This document shows, in pieces, positions 2,763 to 60,576 of a DNA stretch of 64,000 nucleotides (positions are counted from its first letter, which is position 1; every line of letters starts with the position of its first letter). The position numbers and the translations under genes were made by a program. The stretch covers positions 310,001 through 374,000 of the forward strand of contig JAGYIE010000002.1 in assembly GCA_018402765.1 (NCBI GenBank). Direction: 5' to 3'. Origin of the DNA: Vicingaceae bacterium (GTDB lineage Bacteria > Bacteroidota > Bacteroidia > Flavobacteriales_E > Vicingaceae). A model generated the notes under the pieces. That model had not been told where the DNA came from, searched no databases, and saw only the letters and a list, made by a program, of their open reading frames with translations.

Positions 2763-5225
2763 ATGGCAAAAAAATTAGATAAAGAAGAGAAGAAGGGGAA
2801 AAAAAGCCTGGGGTTTTGGATCCTTACGTTTTGGAGTGTTGTACTTATTCCTATGGGAATGTTTACACTCATTATCTATGGCACTGCTCATGAGTGGTTT
2901 GGAGAGCTTCCTAGTTTTGAAGAACTAGAAAATCCTAAAAGTAATCTTGCGTCAGAAGTATATACCTCTGATGGAAAAGTGTTGGGTAAATATTTTTATC
3001 AAAACAGAACAAATGCTCAATATGAAGAACTGTCTCCGTTTCTTTCTCAGGCACTGATTGCAACAGAAGATGAGCGATATGAAGACCACTCTGGAATTGA
3101 TTTTCGTTCATTAGGAAGGGTGTTTTTAGGATTAATAACAGGGCAAACCGGCAGTACAGGTGGCGGTAGTACAGTGACTCAACAATTAGCAAAAAACTTA
3201 TTCCCACGAACGGAACTCACTAAGGTCGAATTAGTGATGCGAAAATTCAAAGAGTGGGTTATTGCGGTAAGGTTAGAAAGACAGTACACGAAAGAAGAAA
3301 TTATAGCAATGTATTATAATACCTTCGATTTTGTAAATAATGCCGTTGGAATCAACTCAGCAGCAAATGTTTATTTTAATAAAAAACCGATTAAATTAAG
3401 TATTACCGAGTCTGCAATGCTTGTAGGAATGTTGAAAAATCCTGCATTATTTAACCCACTTCGTTTTTATGACACAACTCTACATAGACGAAACGTTGTT
3501 TTATCCCAAATGGTTAGGGCAGAACTAATTGATCAAACTGCTTTTGATAGCTTAAAAACTCAACCACTCGGTATAGAATTCCAAAAAGTAGACCACAAAG
3601 AAGGTATTGCTCCTTACTTCAGAGAGATTTTAAGAGCTGATCTTGGTCGTATTTTTAGTGAAATTGATTCTACTACAGGAGAATTAAGGTATAAAAAGCC
3701 AAATGGAAAACCTTATAACATTTATAAAGATGGCTTAAGAATATATACTACCATCAACTATGATATGCAACAGCATGCAGAATGGGCAATGAGTAAATAT
3801 CTTGGTGAGAAACTTCAAAAAGATTTTTTTAGAGACCTTAAAAAGAAGAAGAAAAACCCATTTGATTGGAGAATTACTGATGAGCAAGTAGATCAAATAA
3901 TTAAGTCATCAATAAAAAGAACAGACAGGTACAATGTGTTAAATGGAATACAATGCGCTAACTGCGGTCGAAGAGGTAAATATGTAAGTGAAATTACGGA
4001 AGAAGGTATTCAATATTTTGAATGTTCAGCAGAAGATTGCCACCATAAAAGTAGAGTAATAGCAAAAGACTCTATTGATATTATTTTTAACACTCCGGTT
4101 CCAATGACCGTTTTTTCATGGAGTGGTGAAATTGATACTGTCCTTTCGCCAATAGATAGTATAAAATACTACAAAAGCTTCTTGCAAAGCGGATTAATGT
4201 CAATGGATCCTGCAACGGGTTACATAAAAGCATGGGTAGGTGGAATAAATAGTAAATATTTTGCTTACGATCACGTAGCGCAAAGTAAACGACAAGTAGG
4301 TTCTACCTTTAAGCCATTTATGTATGCAGTAGCTATAGATGAGGGATATTCACCCTGCTACGAAGTACCAAACGTCCCTGTTAAATTTAAAAGAGGCGAA
4401 TTTGGATTATTAAAAGATTGGGAGCCTCAAAATAGTGATCCAAAAGACATAGGCTACAAAGTAACGCTTAAATATGGTTTAGCTAATTCTATGAATACCG
4501 TTTCTTCATTCTTAATGAAGAAGTTTGGTCCGGAAAGAGTGGTAAAAATGGCAAGGAATTTAGGAATTAAAAGCAATCTAGATCCTGTTCCATCTTTAGT
4601 ACTTGGTGTAGCAGACTTGTCTGTTTATGAAATGGTTGGAGCATTTAGCACATTTGCGAACAAAGGAATATACACCGAACCTGTTTATTTAACACGAATA
4701 GAAGATAAGGATGGAAACATTATTAAAGAATTTATTCCTGAAACGAAAGAAGTGATTAGTGAAGAAACGGCCTACACTATGGTCAATTTGATGGAAGGGG
4801 TAACTTCATATAATTACAACCAAGATAAAGGTAAAAAAACTGCAGGAACAGGAATTCGTTTGCGGTTTGAGAGCCACGAATACGGAGGATTTAGAGGACC
4901 AATTGCAGGAAAAACAGGAACTACTCAAAATAACTCTGATGGATGGTTTATTGGAATGATGCCAAACTTAGTTACAGGAGTTTGGGTAGGTGCAGAAGAT
5001 CGAAGTGTACGTTTTTCTAGAACAGCTGATGGACAAGGAGCAAATACAGCTTTACCCATATGGGGATACTATATGAATAAAGTAATCAAAGACACAACCC
5101 TTGGTGTAAAGAATGTAGCTTTTGAGAGGCCGCAAAATGAATTACGCATCGACCTCGATTGCGATAAAGTATCTAACGAGGCTAATTTTAATACTAATAC
5201 TTCAGAACCTGATTTTAATAACTAA
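2763..5225 (+). CDS. Class A penicillin-binding protein (PBP1A), bifunctional transglycosylase/transpeptidase
   Basis: An 820-residue inner-membrane enzyme that polymerises and cross-links peptidoglycan in the periplasm. After a basic cytoplasmic start and one membrane segment (about 19-42) comes the GT51 glycosyltransferase, with '[18 protein letters not shown]' near residue 101 and '[16 protein letters not shown]'. The transpeptidase has the nucleophile in 'GSTFKP' (Ser514), an SxN motif in 'NSMNTVSS', and 'KTGTT' at Lys717. Between the domains is a four-cysteine motif, C398-x2-C401-x19-C421-x4-C426, that looks like a zinc ribbon. The start is four bases after gldH and the stop overlaps the scoA start (TAATG), so all five plus-strand genes may be co-transcribed. 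Confidence 0.93.
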
Positions 5226-5920
5226 TGAAAAAAGTTGTAGCGAATGCCGAAGAGGCAATAAAAGGAATTGAAAGTGGAATGACGTTAATGCTAGGAGGTT
5301 TCGGATTATGCGGAATTCCAGAAAAATGCATTGAAGCATTGTCGAAAAAACCAATTATGAACCTGACTTGTATTTCTAATAATGCTGGTGTAGATGATTT
5401 TGGTCTAGGTTTTTTACTAAAAAACAGACAAATCAAAAAAATGATTTCTTCTTACGTAGGTGAGAATGATGAATTTGAACGTCAAATGCTTAGCGGAGAA
5501 TTAGAAGTTGAGTTAACTCCACAGGGGACGTTAGCTGAGAAGTGTAGAGCAGGTGGTGCAGGTATTCCTGCTTTTTATACACCCGCAGGATACGGCACAG
5601 AGGTAGCAGAGGGAAAAGAAACTAGGGAATACGACGGTAAGATGTACATCTTAGAAGAGAGCTTAGTTGCAGATTTTGCAATAGTGAAAGCATGGAAAGG
5701 GGATACCAAAGGAAACTTGGTATTTAAAGGAACTGCTAGAAATTTTAACCCTGTAATGGCTACTGCCGGAAAAATTACAATTGCAGAAGTAGAACACTTA
5801 GTAGAGCCAGGAGAGCTTCACCCAAATGAGATTCATACACCAGGAATATTTGTACACCGAATATTTGAAGGTAAAGATTATGAGAAGAGAATTGAACAAC
5901 GAACTATTTCTCAAAAATAG
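5225..5920 (+). CDS. scoA: 3-oxoacid (succinyl-CoA:acetoacetate) CoA-transferase subunit A
   Basis: A 231-residue alpha subunit of the two-subunit CoA-transferase that moves CoA between succinyl-CoA and acetoacetate, linking ketone-body or amino-acid breakdown to acetyl-CoA. Visible family features are '[19 protein letters not shown]' near residue 19, '[16 protein letters not shown]', '[23 protein letters not shown]' (split around the Pro/Tyr core), and the C-terminal '[15 protein letters not shown]'-like segment, here '[15 protein letters not shown]'. The start overlaps the stop of the upstream penicillin-binding protein by one base. The partner subunit scoB normally follows directly; here it is about 660 bases further on, behind a degenerate inserted gene. 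Confidence 0.92.
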
Positions 5921-6060
5921 TTTAATGTAACAACGACCTTAATGTAGCAATTTAACAATGGAATGAATTGCTTCGCAATTAATTTAATTAGTATATTAAA
6001 ACATTGGTACATTATTACATTGGAACATTAATGTATTAGCAAATTGGTAAATTAAAAAAG
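5921..6060 (+). repeat. AT-rich imperfect repeats upstream of the four-helix gene
   Basis: A non-coding AT-rich stretch made of short variations on 'acattggaacattaatg' and 'attagcaaattggtaaatta'. 'tggaacattaat' at 6021-6032 recurs at 6471-6482 on the far side of the inserted gene, and 'aattggtaaatta' recurs near 6548. Similar repeats accompany small four-helix-bundle genes in other Bacteroidota from memory; no search was done. Confidence 0.6.
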
Positions 6061-6413
6061 CACGGAAAGAGAAAATATTATAGTTTCGAAAACGAGTGCG
6101 TTTTCACTTGATATTATGCTCTTACGCTGAGTTACTTGAAGAAAAGAGAAAGTATATAATTGCAAGACAGCTTTTAAAAAGTGGAACCTCAATTGGGGCT
6201 AATGTTCATAGAGCGCAGAATAGTGAAAGTAGAGCAGATTTTATTCACAAAATTAAGATTGCTGCAAAAGAAGTAGAAGAAACCAAGTATTGGTTAACCC
6301 TTTGTAAACAAGCAGAGAGTTACCCATTTGAAGAAAATTTAGAACTACAAATAAATGAGATTGGTCTAATTATCTATACGATTCTATCAAGCTCAAAGAA
6401 GTTCATTAAATAA
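6056..6413 (+). pseudogene. Four-helix-bundle protein (23S rRNA intervening-sequence type), frameshifted remnant
   Basis: The longest open frame is 6096-6413 (105 codons from a GTG) and reads 'EEKRKYIIARQLLKSGTS' then 'IGANVHRAQNSESRADFI', the hallmark of the four-helix-bundle family named after proteins encoded in 23S rRNA intervening sequences (also related to bAvd). Full-length members begin with a segment like 'NIIVxKSFAFAxRIxxLY'. That segment is present here, but in another frame: bases 6071-6121 read 'ENIIVSKTSAFSLDIML', and the frame must shift near 6119-6123 to join the rest. No ATG precedes it in that frame. I therefore call it a decayed copy. It lies between scoA and scoB in the same direction, flanked by AT-rich repeats. 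A short functional protein from the GTG is possible but would lack helix 1. Confidence 0.7.
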
Positions 6414-6468
6414 TGAAGCAGTGAATATTTGTTAGATTAGTATTTTGATTCCATTACTAAATCAAAAC

Positions 6469-6565
6469 ACTGGAACATTAATAAATTGCTAGATTTCTAC
6501 ATTAACTAATTGATAGATTGGCAAATTAGCAAATTTCTACATTAACTAATTGGTAAATTATAAAA
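6469..6565 (+). repeat. 40-bp tandem AT-rich repeat downstream of the four-helix remnant
   Basis: Two copies of a unit close to 'tttctacattaactaattg' followed by an Rta-Ratt tail occur at 6491-6520 and 6531-6560, a 40-base spacing. They sit between the four-helix remnant and scoB, whose ATG is at 6582. Together with 5921-6060 they bracket the inserted gene, so the whole 5921-6581 block looks like one element. Confidence 0.6.
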
Positions 6566-6581
6566 TTGATATATTAAACAG

Positions 6582-7235
6582 ATGTTAGATAAAAACGGAA
6601 TAGCCAAAAGAATTGCACAAGAATTAGAAGACGGTTTTTACGTGAACTTAGGAATAGGAATACCTACATTGGTGGCTAATTATATACCTGAAGGAATAGA
6701 TGTAACTCTGCAGTCTGAAAACGGATTGTTAGGGATGGGACCTTTCCCTACTGAAGAAAATGTAGATGCAGATTTAATTAATGCAGGAAAACAAACCATT
6801 ACCACATTACCAGGATCGGTATTTTTTGACTCTGCAATGAGCTTTGCAATGATTAGAGGTGGGAAAGTTCAATTAACCGTTTTAGGTGCTATGGAAGTTT
6901 CTGAAAATGGGGATATCGCCAACTGGAAAATACCAGGCAAAATGGTAAAAGGTATGGGCGGTGCTATGGATTTAGTTGCCTCTGCTGACAATATTATCGT
7001 AGCAATGATGCATGCCAATAAAGCAGGAGAATCTAAATTATTAAAGAAATGCAGCTTACCGCTCACTGGTGTAGGATGCGTAAAAAAGATTGTAACTAAT
7101 CTAGCTGTAATTGATGTTACCGAAAGAGGTTTTGAATTGAAAGAACGTGCGCCTGGCGTAACCGTTGAAGAAATAATTTCTTTAACAGAAGGAACATTAA
7201 TCGTAGAAGGAGATATTCCTGAGATGGACGTTTAA
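6582..7235 (+). CDS. scoB: 3-oxoacid CoA-transferase subunit B
   Basis: A 217-residue beta subunit that carries the catalytic glutamate: 'SENGLLGMG' puts it at Glu46, the residue that forms the glutamyl-CoA thioester in this family. Other signatures are '[19 protein letters not shown]' and '[19 protein letters not shown]'. It pairs with scoA (5225-5920). The usual tight spacing is broken by an AT-rich repeat block with a four-helix remnant, so scoB may rely on readthrough across that block or on its own promoter. No clear TAnnTTTG element was found directly before its ATG. Confidence 0.92.
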
Positions 7236-7310
7236 TACATTCAATACTAGTATTTAATACTATATTTACTTCCACACGTTCACTTTTAATTACATCCATA
7301 AACTTAAATA

Positions 7311-55239: not shown

Positions 55240-58200
55240 TTATCTCGTCAATACAACTTTCTTGATCGTTTGACCATATTTCACCAAGTATACTCCTCTC
55301 TCCAACTCATTCATTCGAATCATTGTTTTAGCAGCATTCACTTGTTGAACTTGTATCAATTGACCTGTCAAACTGTATAGCTCAATCATATTGCCCATCG
55401 CTACGTCTCCTGTAATCTCCACATAAACATCTCCCCTAGTTGGGTTCGGATAAATAACGAAGCTGTTTTGCTTGTTGTACTCGCTTATCGAATTAATTAG
55501 CACATTCTGACATGCTGAAGTATCTGTACATGCTCCTTTGGTCAAGATAACTGCATAGTTCCCATTATTCGATGGGCGGAAGCTTGCAGTCGTTGCTCCG
55601 ACGATAATTGCATTATTACTATCACAGTTAATCCATTGATAAGCAGTTGCACTTGCATCATTCGCTACTAATGAATCATTGAATTTAGCAATTGTTAAGT
55701 CTAACGTATCGATCGTTAAGTCTAACGTTACAATAGAATCACATCCTAAACTTGTTTGTACGGTATCAGCATAAACACCGCTTGTGCTGTACATCATGTT
55801 GTTGTGCATCCACGTGTAGCTGTCGCAGGCTGTTACTGTATCTATAGTTGTAATTGAGTTGTTAATCGTTAAATCCAATGTTACAATTGAGTCACATCCT
55901 AAACTTGTTTGTACGGTATCAGCATAAATTCCGCTTGTGCTGTACATCATGTTGTTGTGCATCCATGTGTAGCTGTCGCAGGCTGTTACTGTATCTATAG
56001 TTGTAATTGAGTTGTTAATCGTTAAATCCAATGTTACAATTGAGTCACATCCTAAACTTGTTTGTACGGTATCAGCATAAATTCCGCTTGTGCTGTACAT
56101 CATGTTGTTGTGCATCCACGTGTAGCTGTCGCAGGCTGTTACTGTATCAATAGTTGTAATTGAGTTGTTAATCGTTAAATCCAATGTTACAATTGAGTCA
56201 CATCCTAAACTTGTTTGTACGGTATCAGCATAAATTCCGCTTGTGCTGTACATCATGTTGTTGTGCATCCATGTGTAGCTGTCGCAGGCTGTTACTGTAT
56301 CTATAGTTGTAATTGAGTTGTTAATCGTTAAATCCAATGTTACAATTGAGTCACATCCTAAACTTGTTTGTACGGTATCAGCATAAATTCCGCTTGTGCT
56401 GTACATCATGTTGTTGTGCATCCATGTGTAGCTGTCGCAGGCTGTTACTGTATCTATAGTTGTAATTGAGTTGTTAATCGTTAAATCCAATGTTACAATT
56501 GAGTCACATCCTAAACTTGTTTGTACGGTATCAGCATAAATTCCGCTTGTGCTGTACATCATGTTGTTGTGCATCCACGTGTAGCTGTCGCAGGCTGTTA
56601 CCGTATCGGTGGTAACTACTGAATTGTTAATGGTCACGTTCAATGTAATTACAGAATCACATCCTAAACTTGTTTGGACTGTATCGTTGTATGCACCACT
56701 CATGGTATACGTAGCATTGTTTTGTGCCCATACATAGCTATCACATGCAGTAATGCTTACACTTGAAGTTGGAGTAGCCGGTTGAGTTATACTAACACTT
56801 GAGGTGGTTATACAGTTATTCGCATCGGTTACTGTTGCGGTATACGTTCCTGCGGTTAAACCAGTAATGCTTGCAGTGGTTGCTGCGTTGCTCCACAAAT
56901 AAGTATATGCAGTTGTCCCACCTGTCGCTGTTACCGTTGCTGTTCCATCAGCACCGCCATTACAACTTACGTTTGTATTGCTTGAAGTTGCTGATAATGC
57001 CGTTGGCTCTGTTACGGTTGCACTTGATGTAGTTGTACATCCGTTGGCATCGGTTACTGTTGCGGTATAGGTTCCTGCTGTTAAACCAGTAACGCTTGCA
57101 GTGGTTGCTGCATTGCTCCATAAGTAAGTATAAGCTGTTGTTCCGCCTGTCGCTGTTACCGTTGCTGTTCCGTCGGCACCGCCATTACAACTTACGTTTG
57201 TATTGCTTGAAGTTGCTGATAATGCCGTTGGTTCTGTTACGGTTGCACTTGATGTAGTTGTACATCCGTTTGCATCGGTTACTGTTGCGGTATACGTTCC
57301 TGCTGTTAAACCAGTAATGCTTGCTGTGGTTGCTGCGTTGCTCCACAAATAAGTATACGCTGTTGTTCCGCCTGTTGCTGTTACCGTTGCTGTTCCGTCG
57401 GCACCGCCGTTACAACTTACGTTTGTATTGCTTGAAGTTGCTGATAATGCCGTTGGCTCTGTTACGGTTGCACTTGATGTAGTTGTACATCCGTTGGCAT
57501 CGGTTACTGTTGCGGTATAGGTTCCTGCGGTTAAACCAGTGATGCTTGCTGTGGTTGCTGCGTTGCTCCACAAATAAGTATACGCTGTTGTTCCGCCTGT
57601 CGCTGTTACCGTTGCTGTTCCATCATTACCTCCATTACAACTTACGTTTGTATTGCTTGAAGTTGCTGATAAGGCCGTAGGCTCTGTTACGGTTGCACTT
57701 GATGTTGTCGTACATCCGTTGGCATCGGTTACTGTTGCGGTATACGTTCCTGCGGTTAAACCAGTGATGCTTGCTGTGGTTGCTGCGTTGCTCCACAAAT
57801 AAGTATACGCTGTTGTTCCGCCTGTCGCGGTTACCGTTGCTGTTCCGTCGGCACCGCCATTACAACTTACGTTTGTATTGCTTGAAGTTGCTGATAAGGC
57901 CGTTTGCTCTGTTACGGTTGCACTTGATGTAGTTGTACATCCGTTGGCATCGGTTACTGTTGCGGTATATGTTCCTGCTGATAGCCCATTTGCTGTGGCT
58001 GTTGTAGAAGCATTACTCCATAAGAACGTGTAAGGTGCTGTTCCACCGGTTGCAGTTACTGTTGCTGTTCCATCAGCACCGCCATTACAACTTACGTTTG
58101 TATTGCTTGAAGTTGCTGATAATGCCGTAGGCTCTGTTACGGTTGCACTTGATGTAGTTGTACATCCGTTGGCATCGGTTACTGTTGCGGTATAGGTTCC

Positions 58201-60576
58201 TGCGGTTAAACCAGTAATGCTTGCTGTGGTTGCTGCGTTGCTCCACAAATAAGTATATGCTGTTGTTCCGCCTGTCGCTGTTACCGTTGCTGATCCATCA
58301 GCACCGCCATTACAACTTACGTTTGTATTGCTTGAAGTTGCTGATAAGGCCGTTGGCTCTGTTACGGTTGCACTTGATGTAGTTGTACATCCGTTTGCAT
58401 CGGTTACTGTTGCGGTATACGTTCCTGCGGTTAAACCAGTAATGCTTGCTGTGGTTGCTGCGTTGCTCCACAAATAAGTATACGCTGTTGTTCCGCCTGT
58501 TGCTGTTACCGTTGCTGTTCCGTCGGCACCGCCGTTACAACTTACGTTTGTATTGCTTGAAGTTGCTGATAATGCTGTTGGCTCTGTTACGGTTGCACTT
58601 GATGTTGTTGTACATCCGTTGGCATCGGTTACTGTTGCGGTATAGGTTCCTGCGGTTAAACCAGTAATGCTTGCTGTGGTTGCTGCGTTGCTCCACAAAT
58701 AAGTATATGCTGTTGTTCCGCCTGTCGCTGTTACCGTTGCTGTTCCATCAGCACCGCCATTACAACTTACGTTTGTATTGCTTGAAGTTGCTGATAATGC
58801 TGTCGGCTCTGTTACGGTTGCACTTGATGTTGTCGTACATCCGTTTGCATCGGTTACTGTTGCGGTATACGTTCCTGCGGTTAAACCAGTAATGCTTGCT
58901 GTGGTTGCTGCGTTGCTCCACAAATAAGTATACGCTGTTGTTCCGCCTGTTGCTGTTACCGTTGCTGTTCCGTCGGCACCGCCGTTACAACTTACGTTTG
59001 TATTGCTTGAAGTTGCTGATAATGCCGTTGGCTCTGTTACGGTTGCACTTGCCGTTTTTGTACAGTTATTCGCGTCAGACACCGTTACAGTGTAGGTTCC
59101 TGCTGTTACGCTTGTGATGCTTGCAGTGGTTGCTGCATTGCTCCACGCGTAGGTGTAGGGACTAGCGCCACCAGTTACACTAACATTAGCGGCTCCATCT
59201 GACAATCCATTGCATGAAACTGCATTCGTAACAGATGCAGATATGGACATCCCTGTAGGCTGAGTTATTGTAACACTTGATGTACTTGTACAGTTGTTGG
59301 CATCGGTTACTGTTACGGTATATGTTCCTGCTGAAAGGCCGGTTATGGATGCTGTGGTTGCCGTATTATTCCAAACATAGGAATAAGGTGATGTTCCACC
59401 GGTTGCAGTTGCTGTGGCTGATCCATCGCTTCCGCCGTTACAAAATACGTTAGAAGAAACTGTTGAAGATGCTGCTAATACTGCAGGTTCTGTTAAAACA
59501 TAGCTACTGCTTGTTGTTATATTATTTTGATCGGTTATCGTTACCGTATAAGTTCCTGCTGATAAGTTAGAAATACTTGAGGTGGTAGCTGATGTGCTCC
59601 AAGCGAATGTATAAGGAGTAGCACCTCCATTACCGACAGCTGATAAAGCTCCGTCTGACAATCCATTACAAGATATGGAAGCCGTTTCTGAAATTGTTAC
59701 TGAATATAATTGAGTAATTCGCGCATAACCATTTCCCGACTTTCCGATCATTGTGCCTCCTGATGGATTAGGCATGGATGCATTTCCAGCGATTAATGAT
59801 GTGTTTATCATATTGAAGCTAGATGGGACCGAATAACCTGAAGGTTTATATGAAGATGAACTAAGCACATAGGCTGAACCTCCACTACCTCCCGAATTGC
59901 CTCCACTTCGTGCACCACCGCCATACCAGCCGCCGCCGCCGCCATTTCCGCCACCTGAACCCCCTTGTCCTCGGCCACCATAACCAAAAGATCCGTTATA
60001 TTGGCAATTACCTCCACTAGTTTGTGTAGCAGGACAACTACCAACACTAGATGATCCGCCACCTGCATATGTACCATTTTGCCAATTTCCATTACCGGCT
60101 CCTCCCCCTGCAACTATTATTCGACTATTATAAGAAGCAAGACTTCGTCGATAAGATAAATCTGTTAATGTCATGGGGCTTGAAGTAAGAGCAATGTCTG
60201 TCGCACCGCCACCTGATCCATGTGAGGCCATTGAGTTATTTACACCACCACCTCCATTCCATCCGCCGACTGTATTCACAGCGGTGCTATGAACAGTTAA
60301 TCCATAGGTAAAATATCTGCCTTGTTGACCTACATATATGTAAAAAGTAGTAGGGACAGAAATAGATAGCTCTCCTTTGGCATAACCCCCTTTAGAGGTA
60401 GTAGAATAAGACTCACCTGTACCACCTTGAGCACCCCACGTTTCAAACCTGTAATTTCCAGGCTGAAGAGTAATAGATTGTTGGTTTCCTATGTAAGCAA
60501 AGTTCCATATTTGTTGGCCAAAACTTGTTGCGACAACAAGTAAAGCAAGTGAGATAGAGAGTAATAATTTTTTCAT
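55240..60576 (-). CDS. Giant T9SS adhesin with SprB repeats
   Basis: A 1778-residue secreted protein. Signal peptide ('LLSISLALLVVATSFGQ'), then a glycine-rich domain (about 25-290, 'GGGGGWYGGGARSGGNSGGS' in the middle), then 13 SprB repeats of 75 residues (about 292-1267) with the pattern 'VSCNGGADGTATVTATGG' and 'YTYLWSNAATTASITGL', then seven 51-residue repeats ('TACDSYTWMHNNMMYSTSG' and 'QTSLGCDSIVTLDLTINNS', about 1268-1625), and a T9SS sorting domain ('VIYPNPTRGDVYVEI' to 'KKVVLTR'). SprB is the mobile gliding adhesin of F. johnsoniae; this is a shorter relative. Each 75-residue unit has one Cys; the 51-residue units have two. It should be exposed on the cell surface. Confidence 0.92.
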   Translation of the reverse strand: MKKLLLSISLALLVVATSFGQQIWNFAYIGNQQSITLQPGNYRFETWGAQGGTGESYSTTSKGGYAKGELSISVPTTFYIYVGQQGRYFTYGLTVHSTAVNTVGGWNGGGGVNNSMASHGSGGGATDIALTSSPMTLTDLSYRRSLASYNSRIIVAGGGAGNGNWQNGTYAGGGSSSVGSCPATQTSGGNCQYNGSFGYGGRGQGGSGGGNGGGGGWYGGGARSGGNSGGSGGSAYVLSSSSYKPSGYSVPSSFNMINTSLIAGNASMPNPSGGTMIGKSGNGYARITQLYSVTISETASISCNGLSDGALSAVGNGGATPYTFAWSTSATTSSISNLSAGTYTVTITDQNNITTSSSYVLTEPAVLAASSTVSSNVFCNGGSDGSATATATGGTSPYSYVWNNTATTASITGLSAGTYTVTVTDANNCTSTSSVTITQPTGMSISASVTNAVSCNGLSDGAANVSVTGGASPYTYAWSNAATTASITSVTAGTYTVTVSDANNCTKTASATVTEPTALSATSSNTNVSCNGGADGTATVTATGGTTAYTYLWSNAATTASITGLTAGTYTATVTDANGCTTTSSATVTEPTALSATSSNTNVSCNGGADGTATVTATGGTTAYTYLWSNAATTASITGLTAGTYTATVTDANGCTTTSSATVTEPTALSATSSNTNVSCNGGADGTATVTATGGTTAYTYLWSNAATTASITGLTAGTYTATVTDANGCTTTSSATVTEPTALSATSSNTNVSCNGGADGSATVTATGGTTAYTYLWSNAATTASITGLTAGTYTATVTDANGCTTTSSATVTEPTALSATSSNTNVSCNGGADGTATVTATGGTAPYTFLWSNASTTATANGLSAGTYTATVTDANGCTTTSSATVTEQTALSATSSNTNVSCNGGADGTATVTATGGTTAYTYLWSNAATTASITGLTAGTYTATVTDANGCTTTSSATVTEPTALSATSSNTNVSCNGGNDGTATVTATGGTTAYTYLWSNAATTASITGLTAGTYTATVTDANGCTTTSSATVTEPTALSATSSNTNVSCNGGADGTATVTATGGTTAYTYLWSNAATTASITGLTAGTYTATVTDANGCTTTSSATVTEPTALSATSSNTNVSCNGGADGTATVTATGGTTAYTYLWSNAATTASVTGLTAGTYTATVTDANGCTTTSSATVTEPTALSATSSNTNVSCNGGADGTATVTATGGTTAYTYLWSNAATTASITGLTAGTYTATVTDANNCITTSSVSITQPATPTSSVSITACDSYVWAQNNATYTMSGAYNDTVQTSLGCDSVITLNVTINNSVVTTDTVTACDSYTWMHNNMMYSTSGIYADTVQTSLGCDSIVTLDLTINNSITTIDTVTACDSYTWMHNNMMYSTSGIYADTVQTSLGCDSIVTLDLTINNSITTIDTVTACDSYTWMHNNMMYSTSGIYADTVQTSLGCDSIVTLDLTINNSITTIDTVTACDSYTWMHNNMMYSTSGIYADTVQTSLGCDSIVTLDLTINNSITTIDTVTACDSYTWMHNNMMYSTSGIYADTVQTSLGCDSIVTLDLTINNSITTIDTVTACDSYTWMHNNMMYSTSGVYADTVQTSLGCDSIVTLDLTIDTLDLTIAKFNDSLVANDASATAYQWINCDSNNAIIVGATTASFRPSNNGNYAVILTKGACTDTSACQNVLINSISEYNKQNSFVIYPNPTRGDVYVEITGDVAMGNMIELYSLTGQLIQVQQVNAAKTMIRMNELERGVYLVKYGQTIKKVVLTR
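55701..56766 (-). repeat. Seven 153-bp tandem repeats (51 residues each) in the adhesin
   Basis: Period 153 bases measured between successive 'gtagctgtcgcag' (55816, 55969, and onward). Six copies are nearly identical; the one nearest the SprB block is more diverged ('TACDSYVWAQNNATYTMSG'). Confidence 0.9.
56767..59702 (-). repeat. Thirteen 225-bp SprB tandem repeats in the adhesin
   Basis: Period 225 bases measured between 'gtttgtattg' copies at 56971 and 57196. Ten copies are almost identical in protein and DNA; the three at the N-terminal side are older and divergent, and one copy ('TAPYTFLWSNASTTATANGL') differs in the middle. Confidence 0.9.

Follow-up and report, generated by a model that had tools for sequence, protein, structure and literature searches.

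The stretch 5921-6581, which separates scoA from scoB in the Vicingaceae genome studied here, is probably a copy, now decaying, of a composite element for which we propose the name “operon intervening sequence”: a relative, lodged at an mRNA junction, of the intervening sequences (IVSs) of 23S rRNA, which would be cleaved in the host transcript and would move between junctions. The unit to which this copy belongs, built on a four-helix-bundle (FHB) gene, is composite; it lies in sense orientation inside operons, exists also in hairpin-only forms, and has been gained and lost repeatedly.

The junction between scoA and scoB

The genes scoA and scoB normally touch each other. In the window, i.e. 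the whole stretch of 64,000 nucleotides that was analysed, they stand 661 nt apart, all the features described here lying on the + strand: scoA (CoA-transferase alpha subunit, the upstream host gene, 5225..5920, PF01144 1.5e-78) ends with its TAG stop codon at 5918-5920, and scoB (beta subunit, the downstream host gene, 6582..7235, PF01144 4.3e-50) starts at 6582. The earlier note had described this split of about 660 bases, filled by AT-rich repeats and a co-directional four-helix gene fragment, and our analysis agrees: the repeats are 8-nt arrays and the fragment is an ORF of PF05635/TIGR02436.

This FHB gene, of the S23/IVP family, spans 6062..6413 according to the two profiles and to the alignment with the intact gene of a sister species. 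Its remaining ORF (6096-6413, 105 aa, GTG start) matches PF05635 at 1.5e-16 (61 bits, cut-off 33.8) and TIGR02436 at 6.6e-19 (68 bits, cut-off 24), thus above the curated cut-off of both profiles despite the absence of the N-terminus. It is the sole ORF of at least 50 aa in 5921-6581, where no transposase gene of a transposon or insertion sequence is thus found. A search of Rfam with 5225-7300 returned no RNA family, so that a known structured RNA is rejected; phage or plasmid cargo is rejected as well, with just two weak phage matches and plasmid matches below 60% identity.

The sister species (G001, scoA 97% identical) carries an intact FHB gene of 118 aa at the same place. Relative to this gene, the start-codon position of the window copy (6062-6064) reads ACG and a net +1 shift occurs near 6118; the frame that remains opens at GTG 6096, without the N-terminal part. 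The loss of the start codon together with the frameshift indicates that the window copy is decaying, and as the substitutions between both genes still give a dN/dS of 0.07, the inactivation must be recent. The FHB gene at the sco junction of G058 is likewise broken.

Repeats of the window copy

The upstream repeats are of AATGTARC type and the downstream ones, of ATTGCTAC type, are complementary to them, both with a period of 8 nt. The upstream arm (5921..5966), an AATG-type array (AATGTAAC/AATGTAGC), begins at the scoA stop codon and is complementary to 6485-6505, 6531-6545 and 6566-6579. A second upstream array, of ATTG type (5995..6053; family D1 of the direct repeats, I1 of the inverted pairs), is in addition paired locally with 5936-5960, which gives the window copy an extra hairpin. 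The downstream arm (6461..6577), identified from the sequence, the repeat analysis and TRF, is again an ATTG-type array of 8-nt period (ATTGCTAG, ATTTCTAC, ATTGGTAA and further units) and stops just short of scoB; TRF scores 6517-6577 as period 16/32.

The flanking 12-nt word tggaacattaat is present at 6021 and again at 6471, where the earlier note had located it; the 40-base repeat of the note is tttctacattaactaattg, with two occurrences near 6496/6536 spaced by 40 nt. Both repeats are registers of a single 8-nt-period array, with 12 ungapped copies at multiples of 8 bar the gap across the FHB gene. The direct repeat of 12 nt being an array register, we reject its reading as a target-site duplication. 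The comparison of filled and empty junctions (sufC-sufD; thioesterase-thiolase and car of Chryseobacterium) revealed no clear target-site duplication.

The inverted pairing between the flanks, which like the broken 5' end of the FHB gene had escaped the earlier note, joins 5939-5959 with 6485-6505 (86%), 5939-5953 with 6531-6545 (93%) and, as the outermost pair, 5920-5933 with 6566-6579 (86%). Over the whole flanks the complementarity of the window copy scores 20, vs a mean of 17.8 and a maximum of 28 for shuffles; the whole RNA folds with z = -1.45, and the arms fold no better than shuffled flanks. The window copy thus does not exceed the shuffles, and it is only in the relatives that the inverted architecture is well established.

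Elsewhere in the window, 55712-59146 contains two tandem repeats with long units (153 bp, 6.4 copies, 95% match; 225 bp, 10.3 copies, 91%), in which a large surface protein probably has its recurrent domains. Among the inverted pairs listed for the window, there is no solo hairpin elsewhere with the array motif of the sco copy. For the rest of the genome, the earlier note had made its reading depend on the existence of further repeat copies, and array tracts do exist: one-sided ATTGNNNN arrays with no FHB gene nearby lie at G000 C1:630712-630787, C1:677752-677787 and C1:276168-276203 (L174-L187), one of them just upstream of an apparent mnmE. They are possible relics. The single other FHB gene of the genome (G000 C10:513876-514226, L062) is intact and lies at the 3' end of a gene; its inverted arms have another motif (AATTGTGAATT / TTGCTCCGCAATT).

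An old unit at the sco junction

The arrangement scoA-FHB-scoB is widespread in Flavobacteriales and occurs also in Chitinophagaceae and Cytophagales. Within the own family, it was found, among the matches listed, in G001, G004, G005, G018, G024, G041, G042, G044, G045, G048, G055, G060 and G061, a few of these matches being reported with one stop. Outside the family, where the named loci were picked by similarity to sco-FHBs, it is present in Flavobacterium, Muricauda, Arenibacter, Kordia, Tenacibaculum, Psychroflexus, Polaribacter, Tamlana, Chitinophaga and Cytophagales. A contig labelled Saccharospirillaceae (L075) also has scoA-FHB-scoB of Bacteroidota type, which probably reflects wrong binning of that MAG.

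On the FHB tree the sco-linked genes cluster (4 label changes vs 34 when shuffled), and those of the own family fall mostly into groups by genus. FHB presence is patchy on the sco tree, with 12 changes, a figure to be taken as a guide only since part of the rows were chosen for FHB presence. Close pairs of sco-FHBs display a dN/dS of 0.05-0.11, i.e. purifying selection. Conservation, selection and patchy presence together indicate that the sco unit has a long history in Flavobacteriales, during which its protein has been under selection and the unit has frequently disappeared; its inheritance was mostly vertical, with repeated losses.

The sco junctions of relatives lacking the FHB gene measure mostly 5-40 nt and have no arrays, apart from a single AATGTAGCAAT unit kept in G009, whereas the earlier note would have been contradicted by relatives that retain the repeats without the gene. 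In G014 (L021) the junction is filled by a near-perfect palindrome (CGTCATTGCGAGGAACGAAGCAATCT and its complement) while its close relative G055 has an FHB gene, which shows a fast turnover. The junction of G007 (L007:2260-3440) contains instead an unrelated lipoprotein-like gene of ~390 aa.

The earlier note had seen in this locus a small dispersed element without transposase. The dispersal stands, as far as a repeat-bracketed FHB unit devoid of a transposase is found across many operons, with arrays that co-vary with the FHB family; a recent insertion at sco does not, and we reject it, as scoA-FHB-scoB is usual in many Flavobacteriales, the sco-FHBs cluster on the tree and the window copy is a decaying remnant.

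FHB genes in operons of Bacteroidota

Our survey of the fetched loci covered 219 FHB genes with products of 85 aa or longer. Most are co-directional with both neighbours (186/213, vs 444/667 for the other genes of the same loci, a baseline itself enriched for operons; p = 1e-9), from which they are separated by median gaps of 50 and 51.5 nt. According to Pfam, the neighbour pairs comprise carA/carB (Chryseobacterium), sufB/sufC (Flavobacterium, Capnocytophaga, Lutibacter) and sdhA/sdhB (Chitinophagaceae), as well as etfB/etfA, oxoacid oxidoreductase beta/gamma, 49/20-kDa hydrogenase-like subunits, Mur ligase/mraY and arsenic genes; in a Prolixibacteraceae MAG (L114:3381-5392) cas4 and cas1 are separated by an FHB gene, and a published table for F. 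columnare contains gmk-FHB-nadD (PMC5524665). Several operons have FHB genes in successive junctions, like L109 (around sufB/sufC), L235 and L197. In G005 two such neighbours are 87.5% identical; G018 has an FHB gene in the first of the same two junctions only, and another gene in the second. One FHB family thus occupies many junctions, and different families occupy the same junction in different lineages. No recently moved identical FHB pair and no movement intermediate was seen, these 87.5% identical genes being the closest within-genome pair.

In most relatives, arrays of 7-9-nt repeats stand on both sides of the FHB gene, inverted with respect to each other. The inverted complementarity of a gene's own flanks has a mean score of 17.4, vs 9.8 for mismatched pairs (Wilcoxon 5e-34), 11.5 for the direct orientation and 9.9 for dinucleotide shuffles. 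A score of at least 16 is reached by 62% of FHB genes vs 5.8% of 328 control genes with longer flanks, so that ~38% of FHB genes are without clear arms at this threshold; in the MFE folds, 66% of cases have 12 bp or more between the flanks, vs 42% when one flank is reversed. The arm motifs vary among FHBs (AATGTAAC, AATTTGAAAATTTG, AAGTTTAAAGTTT, AGTCTTCAGTCTTC, TTAGGTGTTAGG and others), and the arrays can be aligned only ambiguously. Between different junctions, the similarity of the arms tracks that of the FHBs (rho 0.49, permuted sd 0.036), and this persists when the host families differ (rho 0.29, permuted maximum 0.14). By contrast, for distant FHBs the arm similarity is 0.149 in the same genome against 0.130, and 0.132 at the same junction, the arms being unrelated in both cases. 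The array motif thus follows the FHB family, and neither the genome nor the junction, so that arrays and gene form one unit.

Two junctions display this unit in several states. At sufC-sufD of Flavobacterium we found the empty state with 1 nt (L119, L127), a bare hairpin (L121, L124) and the hairpin with FHB (L109, L120, L132), the solo hairpin of L124 and the FHB-containing L120 having arm sequence in common. At the thioesterase-thiolase junction of Chryseobacterium, two C. jejuense strains have an FHB gene with arms, C. lathyri a decayed FHB gene, C. indologenes an FHB remnant with duplicated arms, and L296 and L300 the arms alone. The carA-carB junction of C. jejuense CC143 contains an unrelated FHB gene with other arms, of AGACTTCAGATA type. 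The relocation of one FHB gene from car to thioesterase-thiolase in C. jejuense is too simple a scenario: C. lathyri has an intact car copy together with a decayed thioesterase-thiolase copy, so that copy gain and differential loss fit better.

Possible behaviour of the unit and other explanations

In the operon transcript, the arms would pair into a long stem with the FHB gene in its loop, and this stem would be a substrate of a double-strand-specific RNase such as RNase III. The cut would separate the cistrons harmlessly, as for the IVSs in 23S rRNA, which are excised by RNase III without religation. The unit would tolerate, and even prefer, intra-operon junctions because it needs a host transcript and breaks no coding sequence there. 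Its spread might be self-promoted, and the most economical guess is that new copies would arise by an RNA route with the pentameric FHB protein as an RNA-binding helper; the FHB proteins have a median pI of 6.9 and are not generally basic, which does not favour simple RNA binding. The selection acting on the protein could serve the element or the host. A wider scheme, to which we give only tentative credit, is that of selfish RNA-level elements, the “operon intervening sequences”, spreading through the operon transcripts of Bacteroidota: they would consist of hairpin arms and an FHB protein promoting its own copying into new junctions, RNase III would make them harmless, the gene-less hairpins would be derivatives, and the 23S rRNA IVSs would be just one special habitat.

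One could alternatively consider the FHB gene as a resident of the operon with a host function, e.g. mRNA tuning or subunit assembly, and the repeats as AT-rich intergenic microsatellites, in which case nothing moves. The strong purifying selection (dN/dS 0.05-0.11), the stability of scoA-FHB-scoB across Flavobacteriaceae and the fact that many flanking genes encode partner subunits are all in this direction. Yet we hold it unlikely: a resident gene does not account for one family in many unrelated junctions and different families at one junction, nor for repeated losses with no evident replacement, nor for an array motif that goes with the FHB family and inverted arms about genes in 62% of cases vs 5.8% of controls.

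The gene-less solo hairpins at a junction that elsewhere houses the gene, and the unrelated palindromic repeat in the sco junction of G014, could rather evoke a miniature inverted-repeat element acting at the DNA level (MITE or REP type), moved by a transposase or RAYT supplied in trans, with the FHB gene as a passenger. This appears improbable given the consistent sense orientation between co-directional genes (186/213), the lack of a visible target-site duplication, and arms which are degenerate arrays differing per FHB family rather than fixed ends recognised by a transposase. It is hardly probable, finally, that the arms are secondary, i.e. that FHB genes enter junctions by ordinary recombination and that template-switching at short quasi-palindromes and slippage later grow the arrays. 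Array length and register do change fast between close relatives, and additional array units and one more hairpin are present in the window copy; but slippage alone does not predict a motif common to related FHBs in different junctions and host families. The composite, transcript-borne unit proposed above is thus the reading that we retain for 5921-6581.

Significance and comparison with known systems

Ever since its discovery in the intervening sequences of 23S rRNA, the S23/four-helix-bundle family has posed a puzzle. The present layout, an S23-type gene with a stem-loop, is common throughout Bacteroidota as an insertion in central operons (sco, car, suf, sdh, etf, cas); it offers an explanation of why so many proteins of these genomes are annotated as “four helix bundle protein”, as well as of their AT-rich arrays, and the origin, spread and RNA processing of the units are directly testable in culturable Flavobacterium and Chryseobacterium. 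In the open-access literature we found no paper joining FHB genes, inverted arrays and operon junctions, an absence which is not proof.

REP/REPIN and MITE-type elements resemble the FHB units by their short inverted repeats in intergenic sites and their gene-less forms; they differ in that the FHB units have arms made of variable 7-9-nt arrays and, when complete, a conserved gene. The Avd/bAvd proteins of diversity-generating retroelements have a homologous pentameric four-helix-bundle fold (PMC10053308), and the nearest solved structure by sequence, 2rld, was deposited with 5 chains. Unlike in these retroelements, however, neither a reverse transcriptase nor template/variable repeats are found among the genes adjoining the window FHB (scoA, scoB), and the neighbours examined in the relatives are ordinary metabolic, transport or CRISPR adaptation genes, without an adjacent reverse transcriptase.

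The closest likeness is with the 23S rRNA IVS of Coxiella burnetii that contains an S23p ORF (PMC4990558): the same protein family (PF05635, 23S_rRNA_IVP), the sense orientation inside the host transcript, and an ORF in the loop of a stem made by terminal complementary sequences. There, heptameric tandem repeats (GACAGAT) lie upstream of a decaying S23 ORF (PMC4990558). The decay is shared with the window copy, whereas the FHBs of operon junctions are mostly under purifying selection. RNase III excision at the stem was shown for the Coxiella IVS (PMC4990558), and for the units of operon junctions it would take place by analogy. The Coxiella IVS is in helix 45 of 23S rRNA and the FHB units are in protein-coding operon junctions; at sco, the S23-family ORF is indeed in sense orientation, and complementary ends that would form a stem are present for the FHB family and weak in the window copy, but the flanks are scoA and scoB and not a 23S rRNA gene, a location by which the unit fails as a 23S rRNA IVS proper. 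The intact units of operon junctions look like the protein-coding counterpart of the rRNA IVSs.
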